From a virus, in IMG/VR virus record IMGVR_UViG_3300033571_010371, positions 1 through 34,865 of that record: a stretch of 34,865 bases of DNA; one strand, 5' to 3'. This document shows positions 1-34,820 of this stretch, one piece after another (within the stretch, counting starts at the first letter, position 1; each line of letters begins with the position of its first letter). The notes under the pieces are model-generated. The model was not told where the DNA came from. It saw only the letters and a program-made list of their open reading frames with translations, and did not search any database. A program made the position numbers and the translations under genes.

Positions 1-104
1 CCGCCGAGGCCGGAGCCCCGAACGCGTTCGGATTGGTCGGCGCGGAGGCGAATCTCCCTGCGCCCCCCTTCTCGCTGTGCTTGCAGGGTCCCGAATCTGG
101 GGAT

Positions 105-149
105 AACCCTGTGGATATGTGGACAACCCTGTGGATATGTGGACAACCC
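105..149 (+). repeat. 20-bp tandem direct repeat in the origin-like region
   Basis: Two exact copies of a 20-bp unit occupy 105-124 and 125-144, and the first bases of a third copy follow. Each unit carries two overlapping DnaA-box-like sequences, TGTGGATAT and TGTGGACAA. The unit equals about two helical turns, so bound proteins would lie on one face of the DNA. Confidence 0.8.
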
Positions 150-214
150 GAGGGTCATGGGTGGCCTTGTGGAAAAAGCTGTGAATATGTTGTGGACAAC
201 CGGGATCGTCAAAA

Positions 215-244
215 AACCGGCAGGTTGTGGAAAACCTGCCGGTT
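215..244 (-). terminator. 12-bp perfect hairpin, minus-strand terminator or origin hairpin
   Basis: A perfect 12-bp inverted repeat (215-226 with 233-244) surrounds a 6-nt loop. On the minus strand the stem is followed by a T-run, complementary to the A-run at 211-216, which is the form of a rho-independent terminator reading leftward. No minus-strand gene lies upstream, and two DnaA-like boxes overlap the structure, so a role in replication is also possible. Confidence 0.5.
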
Positions 245-308
245 GTGGATAACCAGTCGACCGCTGAAACCCCTACTCTGTGGAAAACCCCCGACGAATC
301 GAGGACTC

Positions 309-5379: not shown

Positions 5380-6782
5380 TGGACGAAAAGAACCTTCGTG
5401 AAGGCGTCGAATACGTCAAGTCGGTCCTTCGCGAAATGCACACAAACGCTGAAGAGCGTTCATTTGATCCAGACGAACAGGCTTCATGGGAAGCCGGCGC
5501 AGAGTATGTCCGCACCTCCGAGGCTGAACTAACCGCCCTCGAGGAGCGTAAAGCTCGCATCGCCGACTTTGCACCGGCCGCAACCGAAACAGGAGACGGA
5601 GCTATGGCCTCCATCAACGTCAACACTCACACCGCGCGCGACGCGTTCGACCACAGCACGCTCCCCCATGAGTCGGGAAGCGAACTTCGTGGCCGTGCCC
5701 TCGACGTCATCGAAAAGCATCTTCCGTCCTTCGTCACCGACGAAGCGCGCGAGAATGCAACGAAGATGCTGGAGAAGCGTTCCGGGGATCTGGACATTGT
5801 GGCCCGCCACATCGTCCGCACCTCTTCGCCGGAGTATCTCGAGGCTTTCGAGGATTACTTCCGCGCCCCTGGTGCCGGGGTTCCCCGCATCCTTTCCAAC
5901 GCTGAGGCCCGCACCGCCATGTCGCTCACCGCGGCAAATGGTGGGGTTCTTGTCCCCCAGTTCCTTGACCCGACAATCGTTCTCACCAACGCCGGTTCTT
6001 CGAACCAGGTTCGCGAGATTTCGAATGTGACGTCAATCACGACTGACCAGTGGGATGGTGTCACCTCCGCCGGAGTGACCGCCGAATGGCTTGCAGAGGG
6101 TACGGAAGCGGCAGACGCCACCCCGACTTTCGTTGGCCCGACGATCAACGTTCACAAGGCGGCAGCGTTTCTGTTCGGTTCGTACGAAGTCATCTCCGAT
6201 TCGGGTTTCAACGAGGTTGGCGCACTCATCGCCGACGCTCGCGACCGTCTCGAGGAGGCCGCGCACATCAACGGAACCGGTTCAGGTCAGCCCTACGGGC
6301 TTATCACCCGCCTGTCTGGCACCGGTCCGGTTGTCAACGGCACGTCCGGCGCAGCCGGTGCGGCATCCCTTGTCGCCGCCGACGCTTACGCCCTGGACAA
6401 TGCCCTTGGCGCCCGATTCCGTCGAAGCGCAGCGTTCCTAGGCCCCCGTTCCACCTACAACGCGCTTCGTACCGCAACCGATGCCAACGCTAACTTTTGG
6501 GCGGCATTCGGTGGCGGAGTCCCAGCACAGATGATCGGATACAACACGTATGCGAACGAATCAATGGACACCACCATTGTTTCCGGATCAAACGATTTTG
6601 TCCTCATCCTCGGGGCGTTCGAAAACTACAAGATCATCGATCGCGTTGGCGTCGAGATCATGTATCAGCCGATGGTCATGGGCGCCAACCAGCGTCCGAC
6701 CGGACAGGCCGGCTGGTTCGCCTTCTGGCGTACCGGCGCAGACGTCCTTACCTCCAACGCCTTCAAGGTTCTGAAGGTCTGA
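5379..6782 (+). CDS. Major capsid protein, HK97 fold
   Basis: This 467-residue protein forms the head shell. The first 130 or so residues are charged and helical, like the delta/scaffold domain removed by the prohead protease. The mature part begins near SLTAANGGVLVPQF, the usual start of the HK97-fold core, and continues through TAEWLAEGTEA, NGTGSGQPYGL and the C-terminal GWFAFWRTGADV. A strong AAGGAG (5366-5371) lies 7 bases before the ATG, and the start overlaps the protease stop by one base (TAATG). A long hairpin follows the stop, so this gene likely ends a high-level transcript. Confidence 0.95.
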   Translation: MDEKNLREGVEYVKSVLREMHTNAEERSFDPDEQASWEAGAEYVRTSEAELTALEERKARIADFAPAATETGDGAMASINVNTHTARDAFDHSTLPHESGSELRGRALDVIEKHLPSFVTDEARENATKMLEKRSGDLDIVARHIVRTSSPEYLEAFEDYFRAPGAGVPRILSNAEARTAMSLTAANGGVLVPQFLDPTIVLTNAGSSNQVREISNVTSITTDQWDGVTSAGVTAEWLAEGTEAADATPTFVGPTINVHKAAAFLFGSYEVISDSGFNEVGALIADARDRLEEAAHINGTGSGQPYGLITRLSGTGPVVNGTSGAAGAASLVAADAYALDNALGARFRRSAAFLGPRSTYNALRTATDANANFWAAFGGGVPAQMIGYNTYANESMDTTIVSGSNDFVLILGAFENYKIIDRVGVEIMYQPMVMGANQRPTGQAGWFAFWRTGADVLTSNAFKVLKV

Positions 6783-6846: not shown

Positions 6847-6880
6847 CCCCGATATTTCCCCGATATTTCCCCGACATCCC
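6847..6880 (+). repeat. Short tandem CCCCGATATTT repeat upstream of the glycosyltransferase block
   Basis: Two exact copies of an 11-bp unit (6847-6857, 6858-6868) and a degenerate third copy (from 6869) fill the short gap between the capsid terminator and the next ribosome binding site. No -35/-10 pair is visible. A regulatory or mRNA-structure role is possible but unsupported. Confidence 0.6.
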
Positions 6881-6894
6881 GACAAGGAGCAGTC

Positions 6895-8322
6895 ATGGCA
6901 TCCACCCCGAAGGTCGCCGTTGGCATTATCTACGGCAGTTTCGAACCAGACTTCGTTTTTTCCCTCTTGGCACTCAAATCGTGGGACGACAAAAACAACG
7001 GGGTTCTAGATCATGCCGGTTGGCTTATCGCGCAGGCAGGAACAAACCTGCCCCAACAAAGAAACACAGTCGTCAAAGCGTTTTTAGAAACAGACGCAGA
7101 TTGGCTGTTGTTCATCGACACTGACCAACGATTCGCGTTCAACATTGTCGACCAGCTCCTCGAATCAGCCGACCCCATCGAACGGCCCATCCTGTCGGCC
7201 TTGATCATGGCCGAAAAGTTCAACCCTCATCATCGGATTGTCCCAGCGTGCATCGGTTTCGAAACCCTCGACCCGCCAACCCCACGCGAATATCAAACAA
7301 TCCCCGCCGAACAGCACTGGCAGGTCGGAGCAGTCGGCTCCGGATGTGTCCTAATCCATCGAACCGTTTTCGAAAAGATTTGGGCAGCGAACCCGAAAGA
7401 CGCTCAACCATGGTTCAAATATGTTCAATGGGATTGGGTTGACCCCGACACCGGAAAAACTGTTTATGACATCATGGGCGAAGATTATGTGTTCAGTCTG
7501 CGCGCGCAGGCGTGCGGGTTTCGATGTTATGTCGACACCACAATCGAAGCCGGGCACATAAAGAAACGAACGTTGACGACACGGGACTTTTGGCCTCAAA
7601 TCCCGCCGGAACTCATCCCAATCAAAACCTTTGTGATCATCCCAGTCAAAGACAATTTGAAGATGACGAAGGCTTTGCTACGCCAACTTCATGACCAGGG
7701 CGAACACGACGGCATCCTTGTCCTGGATAACGGTTCAAATCCTGAAACGCGCAAATGGTTAGGCGCTCAAACTTTCGCCAAAGTTTTAGACACCGCCGGA
7801 ATGGGTATCCACGAAATGTGGAATGCCGGCGCACATTGGGCAATGAATCGGCATCCGAAAGCCAACATTGCTTTTCTCAACAATGACATTGTGATTGGTG
7901 AAAAGTTTATTGTCACAATGGCTGAAGCTTTACGATCCGATGATCGTCTTGTGGCCGTCTGCCCCAACTATGACGGACGAGAAGCCCCCGAAAAGGTTGT
8001 TCAGTTGCACGGCATTTGTGCCGACCGCTATGACGGAACCGGCGGCCTCGCCGGATTCGCGTTCATGGTCAAATCCGAATGGTTCCAGGAAGGCTGGCAT
8101 TTTCCGGAGGATTGCAAATGGTGGTTTGGAGACAATGACCTTGTCTTGTCGGTTGACATGGCTGGCGGCTGGTATGGCATGGCAACTGAAACGACTGTGG
8201 AACATATCGACGGAGGTTCAAAAACCGGGGACTGGGAAGATCCCGCCATGCAACAGCAACTTGCGAAAGACAAAGCCGCTTTTATGCGTCGATGGGCGCG
8301 TCATGGGGTTCAGGTTCAATGA
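6895..8322 (+). CDS. Two-domain glycosyltransferase
   Basis: This 475-residue protein appears to join two glycosyltransferase-like domains. The N-terminal half has the pattern NLPQQRNTVVK followed by WLLFIDTDQRF, with a DTD metal-binding motif at 75-77. The C-terminal half (about 244-475) begins TFVIIPVKDN and contains LVLDNGSN and IAFLNNDIVI, typical of GT-A fold family 2 rhamnosyl-type transferases. It would move a sugar from a nucleotide donor to a protein or glycan. AAGGAG (6884-6889) lies 5 bases before ATG 6895. It leads a block of five overlapping sugar genes located inside the structural operon, which suggests the target is a virion protein. Donor and acceptor cannot be read from the sequence. 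Confidence 0.8.
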   Translation: MASTPKVAVGIIYGSFEPDFVFSLLALKSWDDKNNGVLDHAGWLIAQAGTNLPQQRNTVVKAFLETDADWLLFIDTDQRFAFNIVDQLLESADPIERPILSALIMAEKFNPHHRIVPACIGFETLDPPTPREYQTIPAEQHWQVGAVGSGCVLIHRTVFEKIWAANPKDAQPWFKYVQWDWVDPDTGKTVYDIMGEDYVFSLRAQACGFRCYVDTTIEAGHIKKRTLTTRDFWPQIPPELIPIKTFVIIPVKDNLKMTKALLRQLHDQGEHDGILVLDNGSNPETRKWLGAQTFAKVLDTAGMGIHEMWNAGAHWAMNRHPKANIAFLNNDIVIGEKFIVTMAEALRSDDRLVAVCPNYDGREAPEKVVQLHGICADRYDGTGGLAGFAFMVKSEWFQEGWHFPEDCKWWFGDNDLVLSVDMAGGWYGMATETTVEHIDGGSKTGDWEDPAMQQQLAKDKAAFMRRWARHGVQVQ

Positions 8323-22837: not shown

Positions 22838-24054
22838 GTGAATCAGTAGTCCTGAAGTTGACTGATGTGACGTTGACGAATACGGAGTCAACGGTCGAAG
22901 TGACGCGCACAGTCCCCGAAATTGTGATCGCTGGCATTGCCGGGCCTGCCGGTCCCGCCGGAGCTGGTGGAGCACTCGGCTACTACGGGGCTTTTTCGGA
23001 TTACACAACCCAAACACCGGTAGCAGATACCGCAACAGCCATGTTGTTGGGAACGACTGATGAAGCCAACGGGGTTTCAATTGTTTCCGGTTCACAGATT
23101 ACGTTCGCTAATGCTGGAACTTACAATGTGCAATGGTCCGGCCAGTTCGTAAACACTGCAACCGCCGATTGTGATGTTTCCGTATGGTTCAGAAAAAACG
23201 GGGTCGATGTCCCGGGTTCCACAGGGATTGTGAATGTCCCGTCTAAGCACGGGTCTAGTTCGGGCCACGCGTTGCCTTCATGGAACTTTGTGTTGACTGT
23301 CGCCGCGAATGATTACGTCCAGTTTTACTGGTCGTCGCCGTTGACGTCTGTCGCTATCACGACTTTTCCGATTTCTGGTTCACCGACTCGACCGACTACG
23401 GCGAGTCTGGTGGTTACTGCTACGCAGGTCATGTATACGCAAGCCGGCCCGCAAGGCGCGACTGGCCCGCAGGGGTTTCAGGGCAATCAAGGTGTTCAGG
23501 GCAGCCAAGGTGTTCAAGGCACACAAGGTAACCAGGGCGCGCAAGGCAACCAGGGGGCGCAAGGCAGTCAAGGTGTTCAGGGCGTTCAGGGCAGCCAAGG
23601 CGCACAGGGCGCACAGGGCGCACAGGGCACACAAGGCAGTCAAGGTGTTCAGGGCGTTCAGGGCAGCCAAGGCGTTCAGGGCAGCCAAGGCGTTCAGGGC
23701 GCCGATGGGGCACAGGGCGCACAGGGCAGCCAAGGCAATCAAGGCGCACAGGGCGCACAGGGCGCGCAAGGCGCACAGGGCAGCCAAGGCGCACAGGGCG
23801 CCGATGGGGCACAAGGCGCACAAGGCAGCCAAGGCGTTCAGGGCAGTCAAGGCGTCCAAGGCAATCAGGGCGCACAGGGCGCACAGGGCAGCCAAGGCGT
23901 TCAGGGGGCGCAGGGCACCGCCGGCGCGCAGGGCGCACAGGGCAGCCAAGGCGTTCAGGGGGCGCAGGGCACCGCCGGCGCGCAGGGCGCACAGGGCGCA
24001 AACCCGCTGCCCGATGACGACCAACTAATCCTGTCCTATCAAGTCTTCTCGTAA
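22834..24054 (+). CDS. Collagen-like tail fibre
   Basis: This 406-residue protein has an N-terminal beta domain (about 1-200; TNF/C1q-like character with ITFANAGTYNVQWSGQF) and then 62 uninterrupted Gly-X-Y triplets (bases 23446-24003), followed by a short C-terminus NPLPDDDQ. In most triplets the Y position is Gln and X is Ala, Val, Ser or Asn. Gln-rich Gly-X-Y repeats can form a triple helix without hydroxyproline. It should be a trimeric fibre protein. The domain order is reversed from many phage fibres, with the globular part first. DNA repeats make it prone to length changes. Confidence 0.88.
   Translation: MSESVVLKLTDVTLTNTESTVEVTRTVPEIVIAGIAGPAGPAGAGGALGYYGAFSDYTTQTPVADTATAMLLGTTDEANGVSIVSGSQITFANAGTYNVQWSGQFVNTATADCDVSVWFRKNGVDVPGSTGIVNVPSKHGSSSGHALPSWNFVLTVAANDYVQFYWSSPLTSVAITTFPISGSPTRPTTASLVVTATQVMYTQAGPQGATGPQGFQGNQGVQGSQGVQGTQGNQGAQGNQGAQGSQGVQGVQGSQGAQGAQGAQGTQGSQGVQGVQGSQGVQGSQGVQGADGAQGAQGSQGNQGAQGAQGAQGAQGSQGAQGADGAQGAQGSQGVQGSQGVQGNQGAQGAQGSQGVQGAQGTAGAQGAQGSQGVQGAQGTAGAQGAQGANPLPDDDQLILSYQVFS
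23446..24003 (+). repeat. Gly-X-Y coding repeat with 54-bp exact tandem duplication
   Basis: A 558-bp array of 9-bp units of the kind GGCGCACAG or GGCAGCCAA encodes 62 collagen triplets. Inside it, 23887-23940 is repeated exactly at 23941-23994 (54 bp, six triplets). This indicates a recent duplication and likely size polymorphism between relatives. Confidence 0.92.
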
Positions 24055-31827: not shown

Positions 31828-32183
31828 CTCAATACGGAACAACCGATCTTTACCGGCTCTACGACGGCAACCAACTTCTCTACATCGGCATATCCCGAAA
31901 TTACAATCAACACAGAAAACACGACCACGCGCGCCGATATGGGAAACACATAGCGGACAACCCAGTCATCGAAACTTTTGAACTTCGATTCGAAGCAGAA
32001 CTCGCCGAAGTCGTAGCCCAATACCTCGAACAGCCAAGAGACGGCCGATACCAAAAAACTCTCAGAGGAGTCAACCGGGAAATCGACAGAATCACCGCTG
32101 TCTATGCAGAGCATCCGGACCGACTCTTCACAGACTTAGAAACCCACGCGACTCACGCCCTAGCCGAATACTTGGGAATTTGA
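31824..32183 (+). CDS. GIY-YIG nuclease-like protein
   Basis: This 119-residue protein has LYRLYDGNQLLYIGIS (9-24), the GIY-YIG-type strand pair with a degenerate first motif, followed by R25, H30 and R31, and a later EAELAEVVAQYLE (57-69) with E59 as a candidate metal residue. GIY-YIG domains cleave DNA; small actinophage and plasmid members exist and their role is poorly known. The C-terminal part, EIDRITAVYAEH to ATHALAEYLG, is helical. Starts in an ATGA overlap. Confidence 0.68.
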   Translation: MTQYGTTDLYRLYDGNQLLYIGISRNYNQHRKHDHARRYGKHIADNPVIETFELRFEAELAEVVAQYLEQPRDGRYQKTLRGVNREIDRITAVYAEHPDRLFTDLETHATHALAEYLGI

Positions 32184-32185
32184 CA

Positions 32186-34342
32186 ATGACATCCCCGCTC
32201 CCGACAGCCATTGAATACATTCGGCGAGGATGGCGTGTCGTCCCCATCCGACCAGGCGAAAAACGACCGGCCCTCACCAACTGGCAAAACATTGCCAGCA
32301 ACAACCTAGAAACCGTCACCGAATGGTTCACCGGACCATACCGTGACCACGGAATCGGCATCGCCACCGGCCCCGAAACCGGCATCTTCGTACTCGACGT
32401 CGACATCACCGAAACCAAAGCCGGAGACGAAACCCTCGCCGAACTTGAACAAAGCCACGGCAAACTCCCCGACACAGCCACAGTCATCACCGGATCCGGA
32501 GGATGGCACCTTTACTACCACTACCCGCCAAACCTTGAAATCCGAAACGACGCCGGCCGACGCCTAGGACCAGGACTCGACATCCGAGGAACAGGCGGCC
32601 AAGTAGTCGCACCCCCAACCATCCACCCCAACGGACACCCCTACCAATGGGACCACGGATGCGACACCATCGCCGACGCCCCCCCATGGCTCCTCCAACT
32701 CCTCACCGAACGCGACCAACCAACCAACCCCACACCATCGGCAACCATCGGCGACACCAACGACTCCATAGCCGCCCGATACAACGAAACAACCAACTGG
32801 CCCCAACTACTCACCGAAGACGGCTGGACACTCACAGAAACACACACCAACGGAGAACAACACTGGACCCGACCAGGCAAAAACCCTGAACAAGGAATCT
32901 CCGCCACCACCGGCCACGAAGGTCGCGACATCCTCACCGTCTTCACCTCGAGTATCCCATGGCTTCCAGAAGGCTCCTACAGCCGCTTTGGCTACCACGC
33001 CTGCCGACATCATGAAGGCGACCGCTCACAAGCCGCACGACACCTCCACAACATCACCAGCAGAACAACCGAAAACTATTTCGAAACCCAACTCATCACC
33101 CCAACCACACCAAAACCCATTGAACCAGCCGAACGAATCGAACTCGCCCACCTGGTCAACTGGGAAAAACTTTGGACCGACGATCGACCCGACGAAGAAT
33201 GGATCGCCGAACCAATCATCCCCAAAGGCCGATCCATAGCCCTATACGCCCCAGCCAAAGCCGGAAAATCCACCATCACCCTCGCCATAGTCGCAGCCGT
33301 AGCAACCGGCGGACGGATCCTCGGACAAACCAGAGCCACCCCCACCAGCTGCCTATACCTCGACTACGAAATGACAGAAGACGACCTCATCGAACGCCTA
33401 ACCGACCTCGGCTACGGACCCCAAGACAACCTCCAAAATCTTCACTACGCCCTACTCCCATCACTCCCCCCACTCGACACACCAGAAGGCGCCCACGCCA
33501 TACTCAACCTCGTCGACCAAACCAAAGCCCAACTAGTAGTCGTCGACACATTCGGCCGTGCCGTCGAAGGCGACGAAGACAAAGCCGACACAGTCCGCAA
33601 CTTTTACAGACACACAGGGCTATCGCTAAAAGCCCGAGGGATAGCCGTCCTCCGAACAGACCATTCCGGAAAATCTGTTGAAAAAGGAATGAGAGGAAGT
33701 AGCGCAAAGGCAGACGATGTCGACATCGTCTGGCAACTATCCAGAACCGACACCCGCAACGGAGACGGAATCCGCCTCAACCGCACCCACTCCCGACTCT
33801 CCTGGGTGCCCCAAGACATACGAATCAGCCGCACCGAAACCGACTACGGCCACGACTACATCATCGACGCCCAAGACCAAACATGGCCCAACGGCACACG
33901 ACAAGACGCAGACCTACTCGACACCCTCCAACTACCCAACAACATCGGCTTCAACCACGCCAAAACAGCCATCCGAGAAGCCGGACACAAAATGCGAGAC
34001 GCCCGCATCCGAACCGCCCTCAAATTCAGAAAACAAGCCGCCCACAGCGAAGCCGACCTACGACTCAAAGCCGGAATCACCGACAATTCACAAGCGCACA
34101 AGCGCGTCGGACGCGATGAAAACCAGCCGGACGCGCAACGCGTCCCAAAAAACCGGGACGCGCACCCCGAAAAGCGGGACGCGCCGGCCTCTAAACAAAA
34201 CCCCCACGTCACAGGCTCAGAAAAACGGGACGCGATAGACCCCGAACGGGACGCGCAAAGCGACGGTCCAACGGGACGCGTTCCCCCCTATAGGGGGACG
34301 CACCCGGACTCACCCACAAACACCCCACCCCCGCTCTTCTAA
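32186..34342 (+). CDS. Primase-polymerase/helicase fusion
   Basis: This 718-residue protein has a prim-pol (AEP) domain first: RRGWRVVPIRPGEKRPAL (14-31), GIFVLDVDI with D71/D73, SGGWHLYY with H108, and GLDIRGTGGQVVAPP. The second half is a RecA/RepA-like ATPase: Walker A LYAPAKAGKST (about 353-363), Walker B QLVVVDTF (about 449-456), RTDHSGK and MRGSSAKADDVDIVW. It should prime and unwind at the phage origin. The last 85 residues form a charged low-complexity tail with repeated RDA, encoded by iteron-like repeats. ATG 32186 is preferred; TTG 32180 would give a TTGA overlap. The coding strand is strikingly A/C-rich. Confidence 0.88.
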   Translation: MTSPLPTAIEYIRRGWRVVPIRPGEKRPALTNWQNIASNNLETVTEWFTGPYRDHGIGIATGPETGIFVLDVDITETKAGDETLAELEQSHGKLPDTATVITGSGGWHLYYHYPPNLEIRNDAGRRLGPGLDIRGTGGQVVAPPTIHPNGHPYQWDHGCDTIADAPPWLLQLLTERDQPTNPTPSATIGDTNDSIAARYNETTNWPQLLTEDGWTLTETHTNGEQHWTRPGKNPEQGISATTGHEGRDILTVFTSSIPWLPEGSYSRFGYHACRHHEGDRSQAARHLHNITSRTTENYFETQLITPTTPKPIEPAERIELAHLVNWEKLWTDDRPDEEWIAEPIIPKGRSIALYAPAKAGKSTITLAIVAAVATGGRILGQTRATPTSCLYLDYEMTEDDLIERLTDLGYGPQDNLQNLHYALLPSLPPLDTPEGAHAILNLVDQTKAQLVVVDTFGRAVEGDEDKADTVRNFYRHTGLSLKARGIAVLRTDHSGKSVEKGMRGSSAKADDVDIVWQLSRTDTRNGDGIRLNRTHSRLSWVPQDIRISRTETDYGHDYIIDAQDQTWPNGTRQDADLLDTLQLPNNIGFNHAKTAIREAGHKMRDARIRTALKFRKQAAHSEADLRLKAGITDNSQAHKRVGRDENQPDAQRVPKNRDAHPEKRDAPASKQNPHVTGSEKRDAIDPERDAQSDGPTGRVPPYRGTHPDSPTNTPPPLF
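34109..34301 (+). repeat. Iteron-like GGGACGCG repeats with about 21-bp spacing
   Basis: The 3' end of the primase-helicase gene carries GGACGCG at 34109 and 34129 and GGGACGCG at 34155, 34176, 34227, 34248 and 34273, with a near copy at 34294 and one inverted copy at 34139-34146. Start-to-start distances are 20, 26, 21, 51, 21, 25 and 21 bp, close to two helical turns. A 14-bp palindrome, CCCCCTATAGGGGG, lies at 34284-34297. This resembles the binding array of a replication initiator. It could also be a by-product of a repetitive protein tail. Confidence 0.6.
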
Positions 34343-34365: not shown

Positions 34366-34710
34366 ATGGCACAACGACGATGCGAAAAATGTGGGGGCTG
34401 GACCACCCCACCCCAACCATGCAAACCCTGCCGGCAAGCATACGAACGGGGCCGCCCCAGGGGCAGGGGCACCAGAGAGGAGTACGCCGGAGCATGGCGC
34501 TACAACTCCCAACAACTACGTCACGAATGGATCACACAACACGGCCACTGGTGTCCAGGCTGGAATATCCAAGGATGGGCAGGACGCCCACCCCACCCCT
34601 CCACCGATCTAGTAGTCGACCACGACCTCGGAATCATGTGTCGTAGCTGCAACAGCCATAAAGCCGCAACCCACGACCGGAAGAGGAACACCCCCAACCT
34701 CGAGGAATAA
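34366..34710 (+). CDS. HNH endonuclease
   Basis: This 114-residue protein starts with a C6-x2-C9 ... C19-x2-C22 zinc region, then the HNH core QHGHWCPGW, DLVVDHDLG (the DH pair), and MCRSCNSHKA (C-x2-C, N, H). HNH proteins of this size assist terminase in cutting cohesive ends in many siphoviruses, and lie next to the terminase genes. Here it is the last gene; the terminase genes are the first, so it would be their neighbour if the ends join. GAGGA (34355-34359) precedes ATG. The final Leu-Glu-Glu precedes the right DnaA-box cluster by some 20 bases. Confidence 0.85.
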   Translation: MAQRRCEKCGGWTTPPQPCKPCRQAYERGRPRGRGTREEYAGAWRYNSQQLRHEWITQHGHWCPGWNIQGWAGRPPHPSTDLVVDHDLGIMCRSCNSHKAATHDRKRNTPNLEE

Positions 34711-34730
34711 CCCACAACATACCCACAGCC

Positions 34731-34820
34731 TCATCCACAACTTCATCCACACACAGCCCCCATCACACCAAGTTATCCACACCCCAATATCCACAACCTT
34801 GTCCACAGCCCTGTGAATAA
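34731..34820. other. DnaA-box-like cluster, right half of a putative origin
   Basis: Within 90 bases there are TCATCCACA at 34731-34739 and 34743-34751, a perfect TTATCCACA at 34773-34781, ATATCCACA at 34787-34795, TTGTCCACA at 34799-34807 and, inverted, TGTGAATAA at 34812-34820. The remaining bases to 34865 are G-rich and hold no gene. Most boxes point opposite to those of 110-287, so the two clusters mirror each other across the ends, about 150 bases apart if joined. Confidence 0.62.

Follow-up and report, generated by a model that had tools for sequence, protein, structure and literature searches.

An iteron-like repeat array in the 3' end of a phage primase-helicase gene, predicted to form part of the replication origin, with a motif that changes together with the C-terminal domain of the encoded protein

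The last large gene of a 34,865-base phage record (IMGVR_UViG_3300033571_010371; the whole of this stretch is referred to as the window) encodes a primase-helicase, the presumed initiator, and ends in an array of short repeats. We predict that the phage carries the iteron part of its replication origin in this array, within the 3' coding sequence of the gene for its initiator, and we put the probability of this reading at roughly 0.8. Comparison with relatives showed that the repeats are under DNA-level constraint and fixed in place, while their motif changes together with the C-terminal domain of the helicase. The proposal in the original prediction that an origin is embedded in the initiator gene is supported, by inference, by this association between motif and domain. 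Features of the locus are listed in Table 1.

Table 1. Positions of the primase-helicase gene, its domains, the repeats and neighboring elements in the window.
Feature	Position	Strand	Basis
Prim-Pol (PF09250) and AAA_25 (PF13481) primase-helicase gene, presumed initiator	32180..34342	+	Pfam matches
AAA_25 RecA-fold helicase domain	33182..33676	+	nearest solved fold RSF1010 RepA
C-terminal three-helix domain, proposed iteron reader, residues 569-632	33884..34075	+	predicted structure, no Pfam family
Codons of R606 and D607, start of helix 3, residues covarying with motif	33995..34000	+	covariation
Iteron 1, TCGGACGCG context	34109..34115	+	motif search
Iteron 2, CCGGACGCG	34129..34135	+	motif search
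Iteron 3, inverted; 7+3+7 inverted repeat with iteron 2	34139..34146	-	sequence
Iteron 4, GGGACGCG	34155..34162	+	motif search
Iteron 5, GGGACGCG	34176..34183	+	motif search
Iteron 6, GGGACGCG	34227..34234	+	motif search
Iteron 7, GGGACGCG	34248..34255	+	motif search
Iteron 8, GGGACGCG, different reading frame	34273..34280	+	motif search, frames
Iteron 9, degenerate GGGACGCA, third frame	34295..34302	+	motif search, frames
Palindrome/hairpin CCCCCTATAGGGGG, 14 bp, closes array	34284..34297		sequence, comparison with relatives
DnaA-box cluster, right part	34731..34820		box search, comparison with L011
DnaA-box cluster, left part	98..287		box search, comparison with L011

GGACGCG occurs eight times without mismatch in the last 240 bases of the primase-helicase gene, seven times in forward orientation and once inverted, alongside degenerate copies. 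On the plus strand, GGACGCG starts at 34109, 34129, 34156, 34177, 34228, 34249, and 34274, followed by GGACGCA at 34296, with start-to-start distances (GGACGCA included) of 20, 27, 21, 51, 21, 25, and 22. The original prediction had given these distances as 20–26 bp, once 51 and mostly 21; the single 51 stands, while the true range is 20–27 and only some distances are 21 bp, and the inverted copy (iteron 3) was missing from its list of repeats. GGACGCG is not enriched over the whole window (10 copies versus 9.05 expected), but 8 of the 10 lie within 172 bp. When synonymous codons were redrawn from the gene's own usage in 5000 trials, the last 240 nt carried 0.80 ± 0.89 copies and never more than 5, against the 8 observed; with eight exact copies so far above the recoding expectation, the iteron-like array in the 3' end of the gene is real. 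Several direct repeats in or beside an initiator gene are also what is found in iteron-type origins.

The plus-strand repeats occupy two reading frames, or three when the GGACGCA copy is counted; copies in one of them translate as RDA or PDA, those in another as VGR or TGR. The claim that the repeats encode an RDA-rich tail therefore holds for one frame and fails for the others, and the RDA amino-acid repeat appears to be only part of the array and a by-product of it. The reverse explanation, that the tail is a low-complexity, RDA-rich disordered extension maintained at the protein level with the DNA repeat as its by-product, could appeal to the several copies that share one frame and encode RDA, but other copies are inverted or lie in other frames, and the codons at the repeats are rare ones: before the last 85 codons of the gene, GCG is used for none of 51 alanines and CGG for 2 of 45 arginines, and both turn up at the repeats. 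Moreover, in some relatives the tail is unrelated or the array lies past the stop codon. On the grounds of frames, codon choice, and homologs, we rejected this explanation as hardly credible. The recoding excess, the several frames, the codon choice, and the homologs with other tails all argue for selection on DNA rather than protein, as originally proposed.

Profile searches of IMG/VR and GTDB yielded, after removal of repeated contigs, about 130 examinable relatives, including phage mu1/6. In most of them such an array occupies the corresponding position, either within the 3' end of the helicase gene or just 3' of its stop codon. A location at or directly after the end of the helicase gene also characterizes the origin repeats of SaPI Rep and Cch2 type initiators. 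About 30 different motifs were distinguished, for example GGGACGCG, GGGAACCG, and GGGACAC, the metagenome contigs being fragments and the motifs called automatically and partly by eye. In 93 loci of the first set that had sequence past the helicase stop, many of them closely related so that counts overstate independence, the densest 7-mer array of the locus was near the helicase stop in 66 and tied in 15, with a mean of 6.7 copies versus 3.9 elsewhere. The array is within the coding end in most loci, while in Mycobacterium elements and some others it extends past the stop codon or is found entirely beyond it. Chromosomal elements of Mycobacterium gordonae, M. colombiense, M. europaeum, and others (L122–L126) have up to 14 copies of GGGACAC or 9 of a GAAACGT type in the end of the helicase gene and the sequence that follows it, some as inverted pairs. 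The cultured Streptomyces phage mu1/6 has ten copies of CCTGCCC in the end of gp21. Among more distant cultured phages, dense arrays follow the primase-helicase stop codon in Arthrobacter phage PeggyLeg03 (L031, 5472–5800; 8 copies of AGTGACA) and Streptococcus phage Javan311 (L212, 3790–4150; 11 copies of AGGGACA). The array was absent or weak in a few relatives (L018, L127–L129), and none was found in record ctVRi840, a distant RepA relative.

Where close relatives have different motifs, the change affects every site, with the spacing mostly preserved. In L014, whose protein is 71% identical to that of the window, the repeat positions are unchanged but GGGACGCG has given way to a CCGCCGCG type, in different frames, and the residues at the replaced sites change from RDA to PAA or SAA and from GTRQ to PPRQ. 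The pattern named as speaking against the original prediction was an RDA tail conserved among homologs with freely varying DNA repeats; the opposite was seen, with the RDA tail lost and the array kept in place with another motif. Repeat positions coincide at 7 of 11 sites between L036, from the window's clade, and L040 (p = 0.0005), and 10 of 11 positions are common within one base between L048, with GGGAACCG, and L050, with GCGTCGCG (p < 0.0005). A distance series of 20-14-13-21-9 recurs, also in the window's clade. With indels disallowed, spacing was not significantly shared between L036 and L046, L047, or L049, nor between L050 and L047; for the window against L048 alone, p was 0.12. Given that irregular spacing is kept, spread of new motifs by unequal crossing-over is unlikely and site-by-site selection is favored. 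The likely cause of the turnover, reasoning from these alignments, is a single changing DNA-binding protein that selects each site.

The encoded protein offers a candidate for this role. Its true start codon is probably the ATG at 32186, because the homolog in L011 begins at the equivalent ATG. The helicase domain has a RepA fold: fold comparison placed RSF1010 RepA nearest (VIA Z 21.8, 4.1 Å over 229 residues), with RadA, DnaB, and KaiC close behind (Z about 20–21). The C-terminal domain is predicted to be a compact unit of about 60 residues with three helices and no wing (pLDDT 95.8). Pfam, PDB-sequence, and fold searches returned nothing significant for this domain, and no known DNA-binding domain was a significant structural match (best Z 5.2), although in these fold searches the absence of a family from the match list does not count against that family. 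FF domain, ribosomal eS17, homeodomain, and Fur appeared as weak three-helix matches (Z 4–5) and were discarded as having no evidence value.

This C-terminal domain tracks the motif. In pairs whose helicases are 85–100% identical, C-terminal domains average 71–94% identity when the motif is the same and 32–50% when motifs differ, with motif classes curated by eye. L099 and L105 have helicases that are 97% identical, C-terminal domains that are 32% identical, and different repeats; in the related pair L099 and L100, DNA identity drops in the C-terminal domain and the array, with the sequences on either flank alike again. At the level of single residues, motif base 4 was A in 17 of 17 cases with lysine or arginine at residue 607, versus 6 of 25 with other residues (42 representatives, which correct only in part for relatedness; Fisher 5e-7), and among all columns of the domain residue 607 was the one best associated with base 4 (permutation p < 0.001). 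This idea was recorded before a second set of loci was fetched, and the second set alone gave 6 of 6 versus 2 of 11 (p = 0.0023). R606 is associated with G at motif base 1 (Fisher 2e-4; permutation 0.006, rising to 0.083 when representatives were chosen more strictly). On the helicase tree, residue 607 and the motif changed together on 4 common branches versus 2.1 expected, which is not significant (p = 0.12), and we therefore regard the two-residue 606/607 code suggested by these associations as a strong lead, not a result.

These associations also bear on two other readings of the array. The repeats could be a packaging signal, with terminase-binding (cos/pac) sites near the right end of the genome, and in L011 the terminase genes are indeed near, about 0.7 kb downstream of the array, and an HNH-like ORF lies in the interval. 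However, in mu1/6 the array in gp21 (12.7–14.4 kb) and the large terminase gene (18.9 kb) are 4.5 kb apart, and the motif varies together with the helicase C-terminal domain, which makes packaging a very improbable function. Alternatively, the array could consist of regulatory sites, bound by a phage repressor as operators or stoperators, or acting as an attenuator or terminator of the operon. Short repeated sites together with a hairpin would be in line with this, as would terminator-like matches on the minus strand (7 versus 2.6 expected), but that is the strand opposite the gene, the sites lie within a coding end where a promoter-like site was looked for and none was found, and for a regulator encoded elsewhere, covariation with residues in the C-terminal domain of the helicase would be unexpected. 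We consider regulation improbable. That the array is tied to the helicase C-terminal domain, and not to a DnaA cluster or the terminase, fits an initiator–iteron pair.

The 14-bp palindrome reported together with the repeats is present (Table 1), and hairpins are common at this position: in the 93 loci, many of them closely related, the strongest hairpin of the locus was near the helicase stop in 62, versus 5.7 expected. Many of these stop-proximal hairpins close the array and have a TA-rich tip, while others are built from inverted iterons. In the window's clade, the hairpin is kept while its stem sequence and register differ among relatives.

The right DnaA-box cluster starts 429 bp past the last repeat, in agreement with the distance of some 430 bases given originally. 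In L011, one uncut cluster of about 14 DnaA-like boxes (5543–5890) lies just before the terminase genes, and the two ends of the window look like two halves of such a cluster, inside which the window was cut. DnaA boxes are thus near the array in the window's clade, as in iteron-type origins, and sit there between the HNH-like ORF and the terminase genes. This adjoining large cluster would suit a reading in which it is the origin proper and the array binds the initiator for copy number or incompatibility control only; given that most other clades keep the array and no cluster was found there, we give this reading a slim chance. For the same reason, a DnaA cluster was rejected as a common feature of these loci. 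The cluster could assist initiation or titrate DnaA. A small ORF between the array and the cluster (34366–34710) has an HNH-like VVDHD...CxxC pattern, with no Pfam or PHROG match, and similar ORFs come after the array in other clades too.

No AT-rich unwinding element was found beside the array, where GC content is 0.63–0.65 within the array and 0.54–0.70 around it; the lowest value, 0.50, occurs at 34700–34799, some 400 bp away. The locus is therefore described as working like an iteron origin and is not filed as a canonical one. GC skew gave no clear origin signal. Elsewhere in the window, a long region of 9/18-bp repeats of CAGGGC type (23477–24000) is probably a collagen-like segment of a tail or fiber protein. 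At 6847–6874, between the major head gene and a glycosyltransferase-like ORF, CCCCGATATTT is repeated 2.5 times exactly; an ORF among the head genes (6895–8322) matches the phage glycosyltransferase family phrog_34859.

In the mechanism that we propose, the C-terminal domains would bind the iterons and thereby bring several helicase subunits to the end of the gene that encodes them. The RecA-fold helicase, once loaded at the iterons, would open the DNA toward the hairpin that closes the array, which would become exposed as a single strand. The Prim-Pol domain could then lay primers at the hairpin, followed by the host polymerase, and host DnaA may assist in the window's clade, where the DnaA-box cluster is nearby. 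Iteron binding and all later steps are modeled on the RSF1010, pRN1, SaPI, and SCC systems (PMC4234260; PMC7581432).

In SaPI Rep and SCCmec Cch2, a C-terminal domain binds iterons located after the gene of the protein itself (PMC7581432). The window's system resembles them in having a helicase with short iterons directly 3' of, or at the end of, its own gene, a C-terminal reader (here proposed), and a primase that is fused or adjacent (PMC7581432). It differs in helicase class, with a RecA/RepA(RSF1010) fold here and the D5 family in Cch2, in the location of the iterons inside the coding sequence in most relatives, and in its C-terminal domain, a 60-residue three-helix unit without a Pfam family. 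Given that no D5-type helicase domain was found in the protein, but Pfam AAA_25 and a RecA/RepA fold instead, we describe it as working like SaPI Rep and Cch2, not as a member of that group. To our knowledge, RepA of the Vibrio cholerae satellites PLE has no fused primase-helicase. The DNA-binding domain of PLE RepA covaries with its origin (PMC8263062), but this protein is a RepA_N-type initiator with an N-terminal DNA-binding domain and an intergenic origin (PMC8263062), and no RepA_N Pfam match was found in the window's protein. RSF1010 combines a RepA-fold hexameric helicase, iteron recognition, and a primase that starts at small hairpins (PMC4234260), divided among three proteins (RepA, RepB', and RepC), whereas a single protein with its own proposed reader domain is present here. 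ORF904 of plasmid pRN1 likewise joins Prim-Pol, helicase, and a C-terminal DNA-binding domain (here proposed), and a stem-loop 3' of its gene, the pRN1 origin, is comparable with our hairpin; however, its helicase belongs to SF3, there are no iterons, and the stem-loop is 100 nt long (PMC4234260). In plasmid RA3, oriV has been mapped to the 3' end of the gene for the initiator RepB (PMC9455977), a likeness in location within a different replicon. Three elements thus each have a precedent among SaPI, SCC, PLE, and RA3: an origin in or right after the initiator gene, a C-terminal domain that reads iterons, and a reader and origin exchanged as a module. The combination here joins a RepA-fold helicase to a small reader domain of no described family, iterons embedded in coding sequence, and wide turnover of motifs at fixed positions. 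No description of this combination turned up in the literature searched, nor any report of such arrays in Prim-Pol/AAA_25 phages, most subscription papers being outside the reach of that search.

At most about 400 bp separate the reader domain from its sites, so that both would be exchangeable as one specificity cassette. In a broader reading, on which we are evenly divided, a large and mostly uncultured group of phages and prophages, many apparently actinobacterial, carries such a replicon identity cassette at the end of the helicase gene (60-residue reader domain plus iterons, about 400 bp), with a code (residue 607 to base 4, residue 606 to base 1) subject to exchange by recombination and to change by point mutation, on a site layout that stays largely fixed. 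If true, origins of a large unstudied phage group could be read from sequence, each with its matching protein reader. The roughly 30 natural pairs of motif and domain would allow changes in initiator specificity, affecting about nine sites at once, to be tested, and phages could be assigned to replication-compatibility groups by this small domain and its candidate two-residue code.
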